DNA of 64,000 bases from Prochlorococcus sp. AG-363-P01. Lineage in GTDB: Bacteria > Cyanobacteriota > Cyanobacteriia > PCC-6307 > Cyanobiaceae. Positions 35,585 to 42,010 of the stretch are shown here, piece by piece. The stretch is from assembly GCA_003278225.1 (NCBI GenBank), contig QCGC01000002.1:1-64000 (forward strand), given 5' to 3'. The position numbers and the translations under genes are program-made. Under the pieces are notes generated by a model. That model did no database searches. It saw only the letters and a program-made list of their open reading frames with translations, and was not told the origin of the DNA. Each line of letters begins with the position of its first letter. The stretch's first letter is position 1.

Positions 35585-36106
35585 TCATAAAGATGTGATT
35601 AGGAAGAAGTTAGAAGATGTCATCGCATGTGTTTGAAATTGAACTTCATCATAACTTGTAGCAACATTAAGCCAACTTGGTCGAACCTGCATCTCCCTTC
35701 CCTGAGAGAAAGCAAAAATTATCGCCAATAATGAGCTGATCAAAAAGGCTACTGTCAACAATAAAAGAGAAAATAATTCACCTCCAGAAAAAGCCCTGCG
35801 AACTTCAAGTGCCTTATTCTTTTTATTATGGTTTTTCCCTGCTTCAACAGGCTCTGCAAAATGAGTCATATAACTCTTTTTCACTGCAGCCAAACTTTCG
35901 TCATAAGCTTTTCTCTGGATAGGATCCGACAAAAGTTCATATGCCTCACAAACCTGGTGAAATCTGCGGGCCGCTTCCTCAACAGGCAAAGCAGAGGTGT
36001 CAGGATGTAATGCTTTACTCAAGCGATGAAATGTCCTCCGAAGAGTAATCCCATCAACCGAAGGGGAGACTCCCAACAATTCATAATGATTTCTTGTGGA
36101 AGTCAA
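35585..36106 (-). CDS. membrane-anchored DnaJ-domain protein
   Basis: A 173-residue protein with an N-terminal J domain (residues 5-70) carrying the HPD tripeptide at 34-36, which stimulates Hsp70 ATPase. It lacks the G/F and zinc-finger regions, so it is a class III (DnaJ-like) co-chaperone. A single transmembrane segment follows at about 111-133 (LFSLLLLTVAFLISSLLAIIF), so the J domain is likely membrane-tethered. The start is TTG at 36106. The client and partner Hsp70 are unknown. Confidence 0.87.
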   Translation of the reverse strand: MTSTRNHYELLGVSPSVDGITLRRTFHRLSKALHPDTSALPVEEAARRFHQVCEAYELLSDPIQRKAYDESLAAVKKSYMTHFAEPVEAGKNHNKKNKALEVRRAFSGGELFSLLLLTVAFLISSLLAIIFAFSQGREMQVRPSWLNVATSYDEVQFQTHAMTSSNFFLITSL

Positions 36107-36189: not shown

Positions 36190-36933
36190 ATGACAATTCA
36201 ACCCTGCTTCGAGAAGCCAAATGCTGCCTTATGGGAAAAGTTGAATTGGTATCCAACTGCAAGACAACTTGAACAATTTTCAACTGTTCAAAAGCTACTT
36301 AGTTATTACAACACGCAAGTTAATTTAACTAGGCTGATCCACGGAGAAGATTATTGGATTGGACAAATATTTGATAGCTTATGGCCTTTCCAAGCAGAGC
36401 TTAATCATCAACCCGAAAAACTCACTTGCATCGACGTTGGCACAGGTTGTGGATTTCCTGGTTTCGCAATAGCAATAGGTCTGACAAAAGCAACTATTAC
36501 ACTTGTTGACTCTACAAAGAAAAAAACAAAAATTCTCAAAGAAATCTCTAGAGAGCTTGGTCTTAATTCGCGAATCAATGTCCTTACTGAAAGAATAGAA
36601 TCCACCGGGCAAAACAGGCATTACCGAAGTAGATATGATCTAGCAATAGCTCGTGCAGTTGCGGATGCACCAGTAGTAGCTGAATATTTAATACCACTAA
36701 TAAAGCAAACTGGAGAAGCCTTATTATTTAAGGGTAACTGGTGTCAAATTGAGAGTCAAAATCTCACAAAGGCTCTCACAATTCTCAATGCCAGTATTGA
36801 GAAAATTGAAAGTATCGAACTTCCATCGAACAGAGGCAAACGCCACCTCATCAGACTCAAATCACTTGCAACTTGTCCGTCTGTCTATCCAAGATCGATT
36901 GGAGTACCTGCCAAAAAGCCATTAGGTCTTTAA
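36190..36933 (+). CDS. rsmG: 16S rRNA (guanine-527 N7) methyltransferase
   Basis: RsmG/GidB adds a methyl group to G527 of 16S rRNA. The 247-residue product shows CIDVGTGCGFPGFAIAIG (SAM site), LVDSTKKKTKIL, and RYDLAIARAVADAPVVAEYL with the family's ARAVA segment. ATG start. Its last codons overlap by four bases the stop end of the convergent aldo/keto reductase gene, leaving no room for a terminator. Confidence 0.96.
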   Translation: MTIQPCFEKPNAALWEKLNWYPTARQLEQFSTVQKLLSYYNTQVNLTRLIHGEDYWIGQIFDSLWPFQAELNHQPEKLTCIDVGTGCGFPGFAIAIGLTKATITLVDSTKKKTKILKEISRELGLNSRINVLTERIESTGQNRHYRSRYDLAIARAVADAPVVAEYLIPLIKQTGEALLFKGNWCQIESQNLTKALTILNASIEKIESIELPSNRGKRHLIRLKSLATCPSVYPRSIGVPAKKPLGL

Positions 36934-38156
36934 GACGTAAACAATCTCTTTTGAGGTTTTCCCCCAATCCGATCACGTAATTTGCGAAGCAAGGCAGGAA
37001 TTTCCTTACACCAAGGACTATTGACCAAAGAGAGAGTCAACTCAGTCTCACTAATTTCATTATCAAGGCAATCAGCATTCTCTCCAGGGAACCAATGACT
37101 TGCATTACCCAGCAAGCCATAACGTGCTTTTGCATAACCTTCCATCCCCCAAGCTTCAATAAGATTATGTAACCAAAGCAATACGGGAATATTCATTTTG
37201 CCTGGTGTCTCCTCCCAACTTGGCAAACCTACCTGCCATGTAGCCAACCATGGCTTACCTAAAGCCTCTTTAGAGGCTTTATATAAACGCTTCTCTATTC
37301 CAGGTAATAATTCATCTGCTCTCTCAACCAAACCTACCGCTTCCAAATGGAGATCGATATCTTCAGGTCTTGCTGCACCAACACTAAGAGTGTGAACTCG
37401 CCGATCTCTTAAACAGAAGAGATCATTAAAAACTATTGGGTGTAAAGGTGAACACAAATTAATAAGTTTTTCAGATGGTGTATGCAAATGTCCTCCCTTA
37501 TCTGTGGGGCTAATTATAAAAACACCAAGGTCATATTTTTCAGCAACTTTTAATGCCTCCTCGTTGTCCTGACGAATAAAGTACCAATGAAGATTTACAT
37601 AATCAAATGCATTAGTCTGAATAGTGCGAACAATTAAATCAGTTGATCCGTGTGTAGAGAAGCCAACATGTCCAATGCGACCATCATCCTGCCATCGCCT
37701 TACTACTTCTAAGCATCCTCCAGGACGAATAGTCTGCACTAAATGTTCAGGAAGATTAAGTCCATGAATTGCCATAAGATCCAATCGTTGACACCCAAGC
37801 TTTTCAAAACTCAATTCAAGCTCTTTCTCAAATAATTTTGGGTCATCGCTAGGTGGAACTTTAGTCTGAAGCAATCTATTTGCATCAGGAAATTTCTCAC
37901 AAGCCCATCCAATCTGGAGTTCCGAGCTACCGTAATGTCTTGCAGTCTCAATATGTCTTACCCCACAATCTTTTGCCCTTTGCACAGTCCTTTCTAAGTT
38001 TCCTTGACTATCGAGAGTTACTTCACCAGCATTCATATCTTTCCAGCTTTGCTGAAAGCGCATACCACCTAATGATAAAACTGGCATCTTGATTTCTGTC
38101 CGACCAAACCGGCGGGATGGAAGTTCAGAAATGAGAGTTGAAGGTTTAGAAATCAA
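36930..38156 (-). CDS. aldo/keto reductase-family oxidoreductase
   Basis: A 408-residue protein: AKR barrel (residues 15-290) plus a C-terminal helical extension. The tetrad positions are Glu70 (HIETARHYGSSE), Tyr75, Lys99 (LLQTKVPP) and His131 (LMAIHGLN); the usual Asp is Glu here. The C-terminus has a few Cys but no clear CxxCxxC cluster. The TTG start overlaps the ferredoxin stop as TTGA, so the pair are likely translated together and may exchange electrons. The substrate is unknown. Confidence 0.85.
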   Translation of the reverse strand: MISKPSTLISELPSRRFGRTEIKMPVLSLGGMRFQQSWKDMNAGEVTLDSQGNLERTVQRAKDCGVRHIETARHYGSSELQIGWACEKFPDANRLLQTKVPPSDDPKLFEKELELSFEKLGCQRLDLMAIHGLNLPEHLVQTIRPGGCLEVVRRWQDDGRIGHVGFSTHGSTDLIVRTIQTNAFDYVNLHWYFIRQDNEEALKVAEKYDLGVFIISPTDKGGHLHTPSEKLINLCSPLHPIVFNDLFCLRDRRVHTLSVGAARPEDIDLHLEAVGLVERADELLPGIEKRLYKASKEALGKPWLATWQVGLPSWEETPGKMNIPVLLWLHNLIEAWGMEGYAKARYGLLGNASHWFPGENADCLDNEISETELTLSLVNSPWCKEIPALLRKLRDRIGGKPQKRLFTS

Positions 38157-38539
38157 TTCCTTCGTGACTTAATTCGTCTGGATACCTGAGGCAACTTCCC
38201 TAAATCTTGAATCTCCATAGCATCTAACTGAGCACGCAGGTCATCTAGTTGCTCAAATGGAACCCAATGAATGCAGTTAACTGGACAAGTTCCTATTGCC
38301 TCTTGAATAAGTTGAGTACTGTCTCCATCCTGTCTGATTGCTCTTGAACGGCCTAGATGCGGCTCAATAACAAATGTATTTGAAGCAACATGAGCACAAT
38401 ATCTACATCCAATACAAATAGATTCATCAACCCACACTGCCTTGTCACGAAGCTGTCCTCCAAGACAAGGTTCCTTACCATTAGGTTCGTAAAAAACTAC
38501 AGCCTTTGCTCTAAAAGCTGCCGAAGGAAGAGTGTCCAA
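38153..38539 (-). CDS. 4Fe-4S ferredoxin
   Basis: A 128-residue ferredoxin with CIGCRYC (Cys42, 45, 48) and a distal Cys85-Pro in TCPVNC, enough to bind one [4Fe-4S] cluster; Cys89 and Cys25 are extra. The charged N- and C-terminal extensions are longer than in classical bacterial ferredoxins. TTG start at 38539. It sits between ycf35 (10 bases upstream) and the aldo/keto reductase (overlapping TTGA). It is not the 2Fe-2S photosynthetic ferredoxin. Confidence 0.9.
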   Translation of the reverse strand: MDTLPSAAFRAKAVVFYEPNGKEPCLGGQLRDKAVWVDESICIGCRYCAHVASNTFVIEPHLGRSRAIRQDGDSTQLIQEAIGTCPVNCIHWVPFEQLDDLRAQLDAMEIQDLGKLPQVSRRIKSRRN

Positions 38540-38549
38540 TAGTCTTAAT

Positions 38550-38942
38550 TCAAGAGTCCCAACGAGTCACAACCAGTTCAATTGACCCATCCAAATTCTT
38601 TTTCTCTTCAGCGACCTCAAAACCCTCCTCTTTTGTCGCAGCTAAGACTGTATTTAAAGCATATCTCTGTGTTAACTGTGCAAGAAAACGTTCTACAGGC
38701 ACTTTTTGTTTCCAAAGATCCAAATCAGTAACTAATTCATAAGCCTGAGAAGAAGGATTCCACCGAAATCCAATGTCTCCGCCTTTGCTCATCATGACTG
38801 CCACTTCAGCTTTCACACTTTGCCCTCTATACCCTCTTACTAAAGTATTTCCTTCTTGGGGGTTATATCCCAAGTCAAGTAGAGCCTTTAGAAGAGGTTC
38901 TCTCTTACGCAGTTGAGTTTTAACAGTGCTGAAATGAGACAT
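38550..38942 (-). CDS. ycf35: Ycf35 family protein (DUF1257)
   Basis: A 130-residue member of the Ycf35/DUF1257 family, found in red-algal plastids and cyanobacteria. The start MSHFSTVKTQLRKREPLLKALLDLGY and the DIGFRWNPSSQAYELVTDLDLW segment are typical. The family function is not established to my knowledge. ATG start; it overlaps the DUF2997 gene by one base and precedes the ferredoxin by 10 bases, so the four genes form one operon. Confidence 0.92.
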   Translation of the reverse strand: MSHFSTVKTQLRKREPLLKALLDLGYNPQEGNTLVRGYRGQSVKAEVAVMMSKGGDIGFRWNPSSQAYELVTDLDLWKQKVPVERFLAQLTQRYALNTVLAATKEEGFEVAEEKKNLDGSIELVVTRWDS

Positions 38943-39148
38943 CAGATAAGTTGTTCTGAAGAAAGCGATTGTGTTTGGGACTCCTGGCGGATATAGGCCT
39001 CCGCAGTAGGTTCCCTACGTTGCACCACCCCTAATGCATCTTCAAGTTTTTCAGTCAATTGTTGACAGGACTGGCCTGAAAAGCCTTCTACCGACTCTTC
39101 AACTAGTCCGTCTTGACGAATTTTGAACCGCAGAGTGCGTTGGGGCAT
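38942..39148 (-). CDS. DUF2997 family protein
   Basis: A 68-residue protein with the short antiparallel-strand pattern of DUF2997 (RTLRFKIRQDGLVEESVEGFSGQSC). Function unknown. DUF2997 genes commonly neighbour DUF1257/ycf35 genes, as here. The ATG at 39148 begins the four-gene run DUF2997-ycf35-ferredoxin-aldo/keto reductase. Confidence 0.85.
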   Translation of the reverse strand: MPQRTLRFKIRQDGLVEESVEGFSGQSCQQLTEKLEDALGVVQRREPTAEAYIRQESQTQSLSSEQLI

Positions 39149-39237
39149 GCATCTGACGTTGAAGTAAAGGATGTTATAGAAAGAAATGCGCTTTTTGGAG
39201 TGCAGTTGTTACAAGGCTGTGTTTTAACTCAAGGATT

Positions 39238-40047
39238 TCAAGATATAAGGCCTTGATCTATTAGACGCTTAAGTCTCTGTTCAAGGGGCGGATTATCAAT
39301 TTGTTCAAGGACTATTCGGGCCTCATAACGTACGGATGGCTCTGAATCATTTAAAAGCACATTTAACAAAGTCTCCTCTATCTGATCTCTCTGAAGGACT
39401 TCTAAATTGTCATAAAGTCTTCCTAGAGCCCAAATACAATTACTCCGAACCAAAGGTTCATTATCAATTTCCAGATTTATTAAGAGCTCTCCAGCCGCTA
39501 AAGAAGCTTTTTTTGTTGAACTAGCACCTGCTTCAGCTAATGACCCTGAAGCCCAAAGCCGAACAGCTGCAACATCATTTTTCAGAGAATGGATCAGGGG
39601 CTTAAGAATTGGGGCATCTGCATAATTGCCTAAACTCCAAGCAGTTGCCTTGCGAACATAAGCATTGCTATCAGTTTGCAAAAGTTTGAGCAAGATCTTT
39701 ACAGCTCGAGGACAAGGATTTCGACCTAGAGCATAAACAGCACTCATTCTTTCGACCGGACAAGGTTCTTGCAAAAGAGGAACCAATAATGGAAGGGCTC
39801 TGGAATCCCGATGTTCACAAAACACTTTGAGACCCTGCAAACGCTTTTCATGGCCCTCTTTTAACCACTGCAACCCCAAATCACATTCTCTACTGACATT
39901 TAAGTCATCAGAATCAAAACCCTCCACATCAATTTCATCTAATGGATCCCCAACCAATTCCGCCTCTAGCTCTCTAGCAAGCAAATCAGGATCTATAGCC
40001 AGATTTGCTAAGGCTTCATCACTTGTAAGTCCTTGAGCATCATTCAT
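39238..40047 (-). CDS. HEAT-repeat protein
   Basis: A 269-residue protein with an acidic N-terminal 50 residues and then five to six HEAT-like helical repeats (for example PLLVPLLQEPCPVERMSAVYALG, LLKLLQTDSNAYVRKATAWSLG, LIHSLKNDVAAVRLWASGSLAEAG). Such proteins are scaffolds, and some cyanobacterial members (CpcE-type, IaiH) act in bilin attachment or Fe-S biogenesis. Because it lies 89 bases upstream of an operon with a ferredoxin, an IaiH-like role is conceivable but unproven. ATG start. Confidence 0.83.
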   Translation of the reverse strand: MNDAQGLTSDEALANLAIDPDLLARELEAELVGDPLDEIDVEGFDSDDLNVSRECDLGLQWLKEGHEKRLQGLKVFCEHRDSRALPLLVPLLQEPCPVERMSAVYALGRNPCPRAVKILLKLLQTDSNAYVRKATAWSLGNYADAPILKPLIHSLKNDVAAVRLWASGSLAEAGASSTKKASLAAGELLINLEIDNEPLVRSNCIWALGRLYDNLEVLQRDQIEETLLNVLLNDSEPSVRYEARIVLEQIDNPPLEQRLKRLIDQGLIS

Positions 40048-40077
40048 GAATAGATCCTAAACAGAATTAGATAATCT

Positions 40078-40203
40078 TCAATTCATTGGAGCTGGTGCAA
40101 GCATGTCACCAGGGAGCCAAATACGGGCACTAACAGCCAAAAAAGCCAGGCCAAACAGCCCAACAATCAAAATTGGAAAAAGAGTAGATCTCAAAAAGCT
40201 CAA
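40078..40203 (-). CDS. 41-residue single-pass membrane protein
   Basis: A short gene in the gap between the symporter gene and the HEAT-repeat gene. TTG start at 40203 (an in-frame stop lies just upstream), stop TGA at 40078-40080. The product has one membrane helix (LFPILIVGLFGLAFLAVSA) followed by RIWLPGDMLAPAPMN. The size and topology resemble the small accessory subunits of photosynthetic and NDH-1 complexes, but I do not recognise which. It is supported by clean topology and position, not by a firm homolog. Confidence 0.6.
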   Translation of the reverse strand: MSFLRSTLFPILIVGLFGLAFLAVSARIWLPGDMLAPAPMN

Positions 40204-40246
40204 GGTTCAAGTTTTATTTTTAATTATTCTGCCTGCATAACCGTAA

Positions 40247-42010
40247 TCAAGAAACAATAGAAATATCAAAAAATTTTTTCCTGCTCAAAATCAATAAACT
40301 CATCACGGCAAAAACAAGCCCTATCCAACCAGCCTTTTCCTGATGTAAAAGGAAACCACCAACTCCTATCATGGCGCCAAATAAAAACGTAGAGCCAAAA
40401 CAGAACCGTATTATCAAGCTGCTTAAGGGTTCTACTGGTTTTACATCAAGTTCCTCTCGGAGAGCTCGCCAACCTGGCCCCGGAGGACGAACCTTCTTCA
40501 CAAAACCGTGCAGAACATCTGGAGATTCAGCAGGAGTTAACATTAAAACTATCAACCAAACGACTGCTGTAAAAACTGTCGTGACAATCAACTTCAACCC
40601 ATAATCATCAATTCGAACCATTGGAATCACAGATGTAATGAATCCCACGAAAAAACCACACACCATTGCTGCCAACTCAGCTGCTGCATTTATCCTCCAC
40701 CAAAACCATCGCAGAACAAGCACAACACCTGGTCCAGTTCCGATAGCAATCACCAAGCGAAATACAGCTCCAATACTGTCAGCAATGAGAGCAGTCATAA
40801 CTCCCAGGACAAGCAAAAGTACACTTGTCAGTTGACCAATGAAAAGTAATTCCTTTCTTTTGGCGGAAGGTCTCAGGAATCTCTGATATATATCATGAGT
40901 AATATAACTGGCACCCCAATTAACAGAGGTGCTAACCGTACTCATAAATGCAGCAACTAATGAGACAACAACTAAGCCTAGTGCTATTGGTGGCAGGTAT
41001 TTAACTGCAAGAATAGGATAACTCAACTCCCAATCCTGTTGGGATGGAAGGAGTACTAATGCTGAAAGAGCAACTAATATCCACAACCAACTTCTCACCA
41101 GATAATTCACTACAAGAAATACCCAACCTGACAACTTTGCCTGTCTCTCATCAACAGTTGCAAGCATCCTCTGAATGAACTCACCACCTCCATCGCTACG
41201 TCGAAAGCTCCACCACTGCAATGTGAGAAATGAAATAAAGGTTGTGACCGTTATTTGTGCACCACTTAGCCACTCAAACCCATCTTGAGTCCAACGCCAA
41301 GGGAAAAATGAGAGCAACTCTGGACGTTGTAATTCATCAATCTTATCAAGCAATTCCGTCATACCTCCTGCCGCATTGACAACAGCAATCGCTACAGCTA
41401 ATGCACCAAAAAGAGCTAAAGCCAATTGGAGCAGATCATTTACAACAACAGCCCACAAACCACCTACAACCGTATAAACCAACAACAGAAGAGCGACCAA
41501 TACAAGAAGCAAAAAAGTGTCACTTACACCCCAAAATATAAAATGCCCATCGACAACAGCTAGTGCCTCTGCGACCTTACGCATTGCTAAAAAAGCATAG
41601 CCAATGCCAATACAATTCACTGGAACAGCCAGAAGGAATGCTTTCACCCCTCGGAGCCAAGCCGCGGGCACCCCTCCATAGCGCAACTCAGTAAATGCCG
41701 CATCGGTCAATACACCACTTCTTCTCCACATGGGTGCAAATACGACTGTCATTGCTACATGAGCAAGGCCAAAGCTCCACCATTCCCAATTACCTGAAAG
41801 TCCACGAGTAGCGACTAGTCCAGCAACATACAAAGGTGTATCTATAGAAAAAGTTGTTGCGGCCATCGAAGCTCCAGCCAGCCAACCGCTTAGGCTCCTA
41901 CCTGCCACAAAATAGTCTTCATTATTCCTAATGCGACGAGCCAATAACAACCCAAGGAATAAAGAAATCAATAAGTAACTTGCAAGGATTACCCAATCAA
42001 CTCCAGTCAT
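40247..42010 (-). CDS. sodium:solute symporter (SSS family)
   Basis: A 587-residue protein with about 13 hydrophobic segments in the LeuT-like SSS fold. The first helix (VDWVILASYLLISLFLGLLLARR) is followed by NNEDYFVAGRSLSGWLAGASMAATTFSIDTPLYVAG, the typical Na+-site region, and DLLQLALALFGALAV mid-protein. ATG start. The substrate cannot be told from sequence; relatives carry proline, sugars, urea or pantothenate. It lies 47 bases after rlmN on the same strand. Confidence 0.88.
   Translation of the reverse strand: MTGVDWVILASYLLISLFLGLLLARRIRNNEDYFVAGRSLSGWLAGASMAATTFSIDTPLYVAGLVATRGLSGNWEWWSFGLAHVAMTVVFAPMWRRSGVLTDAAFTELRYGGVPAAWLRGVKAFLLAVPVNCIGIGYAFLAMRKVAEALAVVDGHFIFWGVSDTFLLLVLVALLLLVYTVVGGLWAVVVNDLLQLALALFGALAVAIAVVNAAGGMTELLDKIDELQRPELLSFFPWRWTQDGFEWLSGAQITVTTFISFLTLQWWSFRRSDGGGEFIQRMLATVDERQAKLSGWVFLVVNYLVRSWLWILVALSALVLLPSQQDWELSYPILAVKYLPPIALGLVVVSLVAAFMSTVSTSVNWGASYITHDIYQRFLRPSAKRKELLFIGQLTSVLLLVLGVMTALIADSIGAVFRLVIAIGTGPGVVLVLRWFWWRINAAAELAAMVCGFFVGFITSVIPMVRIDDYGLKLIVTTVFTAVVWLIVLMLTPAESPDVLHGFVKKVRPPGPGWRALREELDVKPVEPLSSLIIRFCFGSTFLFGAMIGVGGFLLHQEKAGWIGLVFAVMSLLILSRKKFFDISIVS

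Follow-up and report, generated by a model that had tools for sequence, protein, structure and literature searches.

What is the functional core of a row of four genes that encode two DUF proteins, a ferredoxin and an aldo/keto reductase (AKR)? The question is raised by a stretch of 64,000 nucleotides from Prochlorococcus sp. AG-363-P01 (contig QCGC01000002.1, positions 1 to 64,000; the window), where the genes of DUF2997, of DUF1257 or Ycf35, of a [4Fe-4S] ferredoxin and of the AKR follow one another on the minus strand. Ycf35 is annotated in algal plastids and in cyanobacteria, and the papers found give no function for it. We favour the view that DUF2997 and Ycf35 may together form an adaptor for a presumably Ycf46-like AAA+ ATPase, which the ferredoxin would tie to the photosynthetic redox state; judged from sequence comparison, its probability is roughly 0.38. 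The question is thereby narrowed: the proposed unit is DUF2997 plus Ycf35, the AAA ATPase is the candidate partner, Cys28 of DUF2997 is the candidate residue, and the AKR is set aside. The four genes are:

38942..39148, minus strand: DUF2997 gene, 68 amino acids (PF11211, 69.8 bits, above the cut-off of 24.1)
38550..38942, minus strand: DUF1257/Ycf35 gene, 130 amino acids (PF06868, 129.1 bits, above the cut-off of 22.2)
38153..38539, minus strand: [4Fe-4S] ferredoxin gene, Fed7 type, 128 amino acids, TTG start (Fer4_13, 57.1 bits)
36930..38156, minus strand: aldo/keto reductase gene, AKR-1 group, 408 amino acids, TTG start (PF00248, 56.6 bits, above the cut-off of 24)

The DUF2997 and DUF1257 genes overlap by one base, 10 bases separate DUF1257 from the ferredoxin gene, and the latter shares the four bases TTGA (38153-38156) with the AKR gene. 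The genes, coordinates and overlaps described in an earlier note on this DNA are real, as is the Glu70 it pointed out in the AKR; the range it gave for the unit, 38153-39148, covers three of the four genes it named and leaves the AKR outside. A scan of 36800-40300 for promoter and terminator consensus sequences was uninformative (3 sites of each kind; shuffled sequence averaged 6.3 and 2.7). The assembly that holds the window as part of its contig 2 amounts to 1.27 Mb and is 65% complete. Among the matches listed, the Ycf35 of the window is closest to that of Prochlorococcus sp. AG-363-N20 (85% identity).

The core trio is not new. The same three families, in the same order, on the same strand and adjacent to each other, make up cluster g (duf2997-ycf35-fed7) of Synechocystis PCC 6803 and other cyanobacteria, as defined by Cassier-Chauvat and Chauvat 2014 (PMC4284462). 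In the accessible parts of this paper, g or g' is marked for nearly all species of a table; fed7 is missing in UCYN-A, two Synechococcus JA strains and Leptolyngbya PCC7376. In Synechocystis, fed7 belongs to a tricistronic operon, printed there as ssl0060-ssl1263-ssl0662. Fed7 (Sll0662) is dispensable in standard conditions, and the tolerance to oxidative, metal, salt and iron-limitation stress requires it (PMC4284462, same parts). The description of the unit as little described, as the earlier note had it, cannot be upheld for a published cluster with knockout phenotypes. Compared with cluster g, the window has a HEAT-repeat gene upstream and AKR-1 overlapping fed7 downstream. Prochlorococcus is labelled g', a symbol left undefined in the accessible text, so that the paper may or may not already show the AKR extension. 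The window holds the marine-picocyanobacterial form of cluster g, with a separable AKR-1 downstream and the HEAT gene upstream. In accessible excerpts of two further papers, ssl1263 (DUF2997), fed7 and ycf35 of Synechocystis depend on SigD in standard conditions (PMC8875361), and repression of fed7 leads to better growth at 30% CO2 (PMC11782454).

The ferredoxin itself fits the published one. Synechocystis Fed7 carries a single [4Fe-4S] cluster, a CxxCxxC...C motif and a fifth cysteine (C53, C56, C59, C96 and C100 in the excerpts of PMC4284462). The window protein has the motif CxxCxxC...CPVNC with Cys42, Cys45, Cys48 and Cys85, followed by Cys89, in identical spacing. The five-cysteine motif was present in 161/161 Fed7 loci.

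How far does the linkage reach? Our phylum sample comprised 194 genomes, 89 of them Cyanobacteriia; a weak ferredoxin match in one genome (G146; 37% identity, one stop codon) was left out of the counts. Fed7 is found in 86 of the 89 Cyanobacteriia, and in every one of these 86 the best DUF1257 shares its contig and is no more than 778 bp distant, which bears out the claim of a tight, conserved, operon-like unit. The linkage also extends beyond the genus: the order HEAT-DUF2997-DUF1257-ferredoxin-AKR was seen in 12/12 other genomes of the family, which cover 8 further genera. In a genome scan, the best 80 of 560 relatives were picocyanobacterial loci; 75 of these 80 carry HEAT, DUF2997, DUF1257, ferredoxin and AKR, and the one-base overlap of DUF2997 and DUF1257 recurs in 50/79. 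Some of the distances measured between these two genes in the loci examined, such as -393, probably stem from reading frames picked wrongly.

Three Cyanobacteriia of the sample (G147, G183 and G177) have no Fed7. The first two belong to one genus and look like non-photosynthetic endosymbionts: the photosystem II reaction-centre family gave no match in G183 and three short or broken ones in G147, whereas their congener G143 shows full matches, as does G177. DUF1257 gave no match in G147 and, in G183, one match with four stops plus one short stop-bearing fragment; an AAA match at E <= 1e-80 is missing from both. Fed7, intact Ycf35, the AAA ATPase and intact photosystem II reaction-centre genes are thus missing from both genomes. 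G177 retains DUF1257 copies of another kind, one grouping with the paralogues in the tree (L076), the other placed beside an AAA gene (L081). In 3/3 cases, then, the lack of Fed7 goes with the lack of an intact Fed7-type Ycf35.

DUF2997 and Ycf35 are paired also in viruses. A viral scan yielded 395 viral-contig stretches that encode a DUF1257 relative, of which the best 80 (L195-L274) were inspected with up to 6 kb on each side; in 51 of them both flanks exceed 1 kb. An overlapping DUF2997 gene lies directly upstream of DUF1257 in all 76 loci that have room for it (overlap 1-80 nt), and in the other four the DUF1257 start is within 80 nt of the contig edge. Fed7, AKR, HEAT, DnaJ and AAA genes were seen in 0/80 of these stretches. 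That the DUF proteins are helpers of the ferredoxin and the AKR, as had been supposed, is hard to reconcile with viruses that carry the DUF pair and, in the stretches examined, neither Fed7 nor AKR.

Of 50,697 annotated phage records, 15 have a DUF1257 match. Two phages recorded on Prochlorococcus NATL1A, P-SSM2 and P-SSM7 (L062, L063), carry the overlapping pair (PF11211, 64.5 and 61.4 bits), and within 8.4 kb around it neither showed a match to Fed7, AKR or AAA. In P-SSM7 the pair has high-light-inducible (hli) genes on one side and psbA on the other. The ferredoxin encoded 1.7 kb downstream belongs to the plant [2Fe-2S] type (CRAGSCSSC) and does not resemble Fed7. Among the 80 viral loci, 15 have psbA, hli, petF, talC or ho1 and 32 have one of three T4 core genes.

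The 80 viral DUF1257 genes are 41-52% identical to that of the window. In a tree of 85 rows, whose columns are few and branches long, the 22 viral rows group into a single clade (100/98). A branch of 99/87 divides the tree: the viral rows fall together with the 23 picocyanobacterial rows and the plasmid row L064, which sits on a very long branch and is flagged as unreliable; across it lie the remaining Fed7-type rows, the paralogues, three plasmid rows and two non-cyanobacterial rows. By sequence, the phage copy is related to a host gene, as an auxiliary metabolic gene should be, and the pair resembles psbA, hli, talC and ho1 of cyanophages in being host-like and carried by T4-like cyanophages. 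We regard Ycf35 plus DUF2997 as a candidate auxiliary metabolic gene pair. Both families are listed as of unknown function in PHROGs, and DUF2997 has been noted in 'some viruses' (PMC13131479). Searches on combinations of ycf35, DUF1257, DUF2997 and cyanophage found no paper that names Ycf35 in phages, and the viral pairing is apparently new. It implies that some ocean cyanophages probably gain from DUF2997 and Ycf35, and it offers a candidate handle on phage control of host photosynthesis.

The candidate partner emerges from the Ycf35 copies that are not next to Fed7. Nine of 34 matching plasmid records were opened, eight cyanobacterial and one from Treponema. DUF1257, DUF2997 and an AAA ATPase occur together in all eight cyanobacterial plasmid regions; five of them, from Nostocaceae (L064, L306-L309), show the order DUF1257-DUF2997-AAA-WGR, interspersed with small genes in some. 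On a Pseudanabaena plasmid the module lies beside GrpE and Hsp70. The Treponema succinifaciens plasmid has its DUF1257 (L066, 4001-4408) amid contractile-tail genes, with no annotated DUF2997 or AAA. Around paralogous chromosomal DUF1257 genes of Cyanobacteriia (L069-L083), 13 of the 15 stretches read, each about 10 kb long, contain an AAA gene. Non-Fed7 Ycf35 copies thus mostly lie near this ATPase, which is apparently new. As a side observation, four larger picocyanobacterial genomes (L301-L304) contain a second, very divergent DUF1257 match (32-47 bits), and no AAA was seen in the 3 kb examined near it.

The distribution of the two families agrees in part. The AAA gene is present in 87/89 Cyanobacteriia and in 37 other sampled genomes. 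With at most 7 AAA candidates scored per genome, the copy numbers of DUF1257 and AAA are equal in 69/89 Cyanobacteriia; outside the picocyanobacteria they agree in 60/76, where permutations gave 35.9 on average and 48 at most, kinship being ignored.

The ATPase found with Ycf35 is a protein with a single AAA domain and some 500-545 amino acids, which we take, from length and annotation only, to be Ycf46-like. The genome of the window has a single AAA gene, on contig 4 (L287, 4960-6459), in the order rnpA-PH-yidC-AAA-serS-rseP, the names being assigned by reading the sequences. This order is repeated in G114 and G169, while G139 has one extra gene between yidC and AAA; in G036, yidC precedes AAA with two genes between and no serS after. 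The position between yidC and serS in the window genome, G114, G139 and G169 is a hint at membrane-protein biogenesis. The gene thus sits in the yidC region, away from the trio, and its product is likened to Ycf46 (Slr0374) by length and annotation alone. In excerpts of PMC7496141, Slr0374 is Ycf46, with a role in stress and CO2, and its role in CO2 utilisation is credited to Jiang 2015. Elsewhere, ycf35 and ycf46 are among four genes that track habitat in red-algal plastids (PMC5940233, accessible part).

Which residue could sense the redox state? Cys28 of DUF2997 (codon 39065-39067) is invariant in 66/66 alignment rows, and the pattern C-x3-[TSP] is present in 207/207 distinct DUF2997 segments (89 picocyanobacterial, 54 other Fed7-linked, 57 phage, 4 plasmid and 3 paralogous). 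This invariance is apparently new. The window DUF1257 has zero cysteines. Its N-terminus is MSHF, and [MVL]SH-[FLI] was found in frame in 274/274 DUF1257 loci (266 SHF, eight MSHL or MSHI), although the loci of the genome and viral scans were found with patterns that include MSHFS, so that the motif is not independent there; the other loci were found without it. The Met-Ser-His start (38931-38942 in the window) was seen in nearly every DUF1257 read, distant ones included, and suggests that the N-terminus itself is functional.

Structure predictions were built from alignments of 68/87 dereplicated DUF1257 rows and 65/90 DUF2997 rows, each with the window's own sequence. Rows read in a wrong frame (L016, L054 and the second rows of L156 and L159) were disregarded. 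The AlphaFold2 model of DUF2997 is beta-beta-alpha, with a mean predicted local distance difference test score (pLDDT) of 76, and met one PDB chain at Z >= 2 (Z 2.1). That of DUF1257 has a mean pLDDT of 92.2 and a predicted template modelling score of 0.84. Foldseek gave no match for it at E <= 0.001 (best 0.076); the best VIA-align result (Z 6.2, 3.2 A, 77 residues) is to the AMPK core 4eai, with tied rows following. Such a Z lies within the range of models without a clear match, and no fold relative is therefore claimed. Profile searches against PDB sequences with DUF1257 and DUF2997 gave only matches of E > 0.1. In NCBIfam, no family reached its cut-off for six window proteins, nor for the AAA and AKR proteins compared.

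From this pairing and co-occurrence we infer a working model. DUF2997 and Ycf35 would act as a substrate or regulatory adaptor of the AAA ATPase. Cys28 of DUF2997, together with the Fe-S and fifth-cysteine centre of Fed7, might render the adaptor responsive to the photosynthetic redox state, so that light, iron or oxidative stress would lead the ATPase to remodel photosynthetic proteins. The AKR would be a co-transcribed passenger or a member of a stress co-regulon rather than the acceptor of Fed7 electrons. A fuller version is doubtful as a whole: here a two-protein redox-sensing adaptor would serve a Ycf46-type remodeller of the photosynthetic membrane, Fed7 would link it via Cys28 to the electron flow of the photosystems, and T4-like cyanophages, with the pair alone, would retarget the remodeller of the host during infection. 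A phage takeover of host photosynthesis through a remodeller adaptor was found in no paper searched.

Several observations weigh against the adaptor model. Some concern Fed7: in the accessible text of PMC8875361 the high-temperature SigD list has ycf35 and ssl1263, not fed7; according to excerpts of PMC8887894, photoautotrophic growth is normal upon deletion of fx7, and fx7 is not among the deletions reported there to impair photomixotrophic growth. G177 has photosystem II genes without Fed7, which implies that the trio is not essential to photosynthesis, and the joint absence described above comes from just two genomes of one genus. Others concern the ATPase. Its gene is far from the trio in picocyanobacteria; it was not seen in the stretches L075 and L076, nor in the non-cyanobacterial L084-L086, where DUF2997, GrpE-like and Hsp70-like genes were not seen either. 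In 29 genomes outside the Cyanobacteriia it is present without DUF1257. The copy numbers disagree in 20/89 genomes, four of which are picocyanobacteria with the weak second DUF1257 (here too, kinship is ignored and at most 7 AAA candidates per genome were scored). DUF2997 is found in only 3/15 paralogous stretches (L069, L072 and L074), which lowers the odds slightly, and neither DUF model has a clear PDB relative.

An explanation that is compatible with the adaptor model, and in our judgement likely, considers the outer genes (HEAT, AKR, rsmG, DnaJ, SSS and rlmN) as conserved picocyanobacterial gene order only, the trio alone being functional. The neighbours concerned are:

39238..40047, minus strand: HEAT-repeat protein gene, syntenic neighbour upstream (PF13646, 82.2 bits)
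36190..36933, plus strand: rsmG (gidB), convergent, bounding the unit (PF02527, 115.7 bits)
35585..36106, minus strand: DnaJ-domain protein gene, syntenic neighbour downstream (PF00226, 60.2 bits)

Of the 80 picocyanobacterial loci, 63 hold rlmN, HEAT, the trio, AKR, rsmG and DnaJ. Outside the family, the 194 sampled genomes show no linkage of HEAT, AKR or DnaJ to Fed7, except in G036 (HEAT and AKR) and G019 (DnaJ). The linkage of HEAT and AKR in G036, a member of another family, speaks against mere gene order, as does the AKR frame, which abuts or overlaps the ferredoxin gene in many loci when the distance is taken to the alignment start instead of the start codon; translational coupling is therefore plausible.

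The HEAT gene, 89 bases upstream of DUF2997, is a syntenic neighbour and not part of the functional core. The suggestion of the earlier note that it could be an Fe-S factor was dropped: the gene is kept in G147 (128.9 bits) and G183 (138.5 bits), both of which have lost Fed7 along with intact photosystem II genes, and its matches to phycobilin lyase and NblB models fall below the cut-offs.

The DnaJ gene deserves a comment of its own. Two-hybrid partners of Synechocystis Fed7 are FTRc and the DnaJ-like Sll1384, and among the homologues that Synechocystis has of the Fed half of DnaJ-Fed proteins Fed7 is the nearest; cluster c combines a DnaJ gene with fed2 and suhB (all from accessible parts of PMC4284462). 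DnaJ-Fer fusions are known from green plants and Thaumarchaeota, and their Fer half is held to derive from cyanobacterial Fer proteins (PMC3564930, in excerpts). In the window, by contrast, DnaJ and ferredoxin are separate genes. Sll1384 we take to be the DnaJ gene of cluster c. As a partner of Fed7 the window DnaJ (35585-36106) was discarded: synteny is its sole support, and outside the picocyanobacteria of the sample a DnaJ gene is near Fed7 only in G019. There (L049, 2287-2853) it follows fed7 in the same orientation, which brings to mind the DnaJ-Fer fusion of plants. G183 has an open DnaJ reading frame; that of G147 contains one stop.

A rival of the adaptor model is the view that DUF2997 and Ycf35 serve the ferredoxin alone and mature or protect it, Cys28 carrying sulfur or iron or guarding the Fed7 cluster, in concert with DnaJ/Hsp70. 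The constant vicinity of Fed7 and Ycf35 (86/86 genomes), the invariant cysteine, the binding of a DnaJ-like protein to Fed7 (PMC4284462, in part) and the green-plant DnaJ-Fer fusions (PMC3564930, likewise) are in line with it. So are the GrpE-like genes near DUF2997 in L069, L072 and L074, joined by an Hsp70-like gene in the last two, and the GrpE and Hsp70 of the Pseudanabaena plasmid. Against it, the pair occurs without Fed7 in cyanophages (0/80 loci) and on plasmids, and G177 retains other DUF1257 copies and no Fed7. We consider this view rather doubtful.

A counter-defence role of the phage pair, as a decoy that would jam plasmid DUF1257-DUF2997-AAA systems of defence or maintenance, appears quite improbable. 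It is suggested by two plasmids (L065 and L067, from Pseudanabaena and Geminocystis) on which the module lies beside genes with PADLOC matches (HEC-02B 491, AbiLi 262 and AbiLii 87 bits). DUF1257 and DUF2997 themselves gave no PADLOC match (2023 library) at E <= 0.001. Against the decoy role stand three observations: the IetA models match the AAA proteins in no part but the ATPase region (76-91 bits); the 99/87 branch splits the viral clade from three of the four plasmid rows, the long and unreliable L064 falling on the viral side; and the P-SSM7 pair has its place between hli genes and psbA.

Weakest is the model of the earlier note, in which electrons from the ferredoxin would reach the AKR through a small redox pathway, helped along by the DUF proteins: although the two genes share four bases and are linked in 13/13 sampled genomes of the family (window included) and in G036, and although a separate ferredoxin might substitute for Fe-S motifs that the AKR has lost, it is ruled out as the main reading by phylogenetic decoupling and has to be considered very improbable.

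The decoupling is evident in either direction. AKR-1 orthologues occur in 81 Cyanobacteriia of the sample. They lie within 5 kb of Fed7 in 14 of the 78 genomes that have both, the same 13 of the family and G036, and are unlinked in 64; eight genomes have Fed7 without AKR-1 and three have AKR-1 without Fed7. Among the Fed7-less genomes, G147 and G183 keep the AKR (415.7 and 412.4 bits). Two picocyanobacterial loci, in Prochlorococcus AG-409-L21 (L148) and Synechococcus CS-1330 (L188), lack the AKR between intact flanks; another, L189, ends shortly past the ferredoxin gene. Ferredoxin feeding of the AKR is unlikely, since the AKR is separable from Fed7 and no longer has the Fe-S motifs that its paralogue keeps. 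AKRs are enzymes of hydride transfer that depend on NAD(P)H and need no ferredoxin, and by its sequence the window protein is best read as an NAD(P)H enzyme of this kind.

Aldo/keto reductases usually have the catalytic tetrad Asp-Tyr-Lys-His. That of the window is Glu-Tyr-Lys-His, without the usual Asp; Glu70 (codon 37947-37949, minus strand) stands in the context H-I-E70-T-A-R-H-Y-G. H[IVL]ETA..YG is present in 75/77 picocyanobacterial AKR orthologues and unmatched in the other two, and the Fe-S-carrying paralogue AKR-2 shows HIETA or HFETA. As Glu is found in AKR-1 and AKR-2 alike, it is a trait of the family. The sole match of the AKR among PDB sequences at E <= 1e-5 is 9yeb (4.8e-14). CxxCxxC was found in 0/77 picocyanobacterial AKRs. 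The AKRs of cyanobacteria fall into two paralogous groups that differ in a pair of C-terminal cysteine motifs of the 4Fe-4S kind: both motifs are present in 3/3 aligned AKR-2 rows (L282, L286 and L294), while the window AKR and 4/4 other AKR-1 rows have lost them and retain much of the surrounding sequence.

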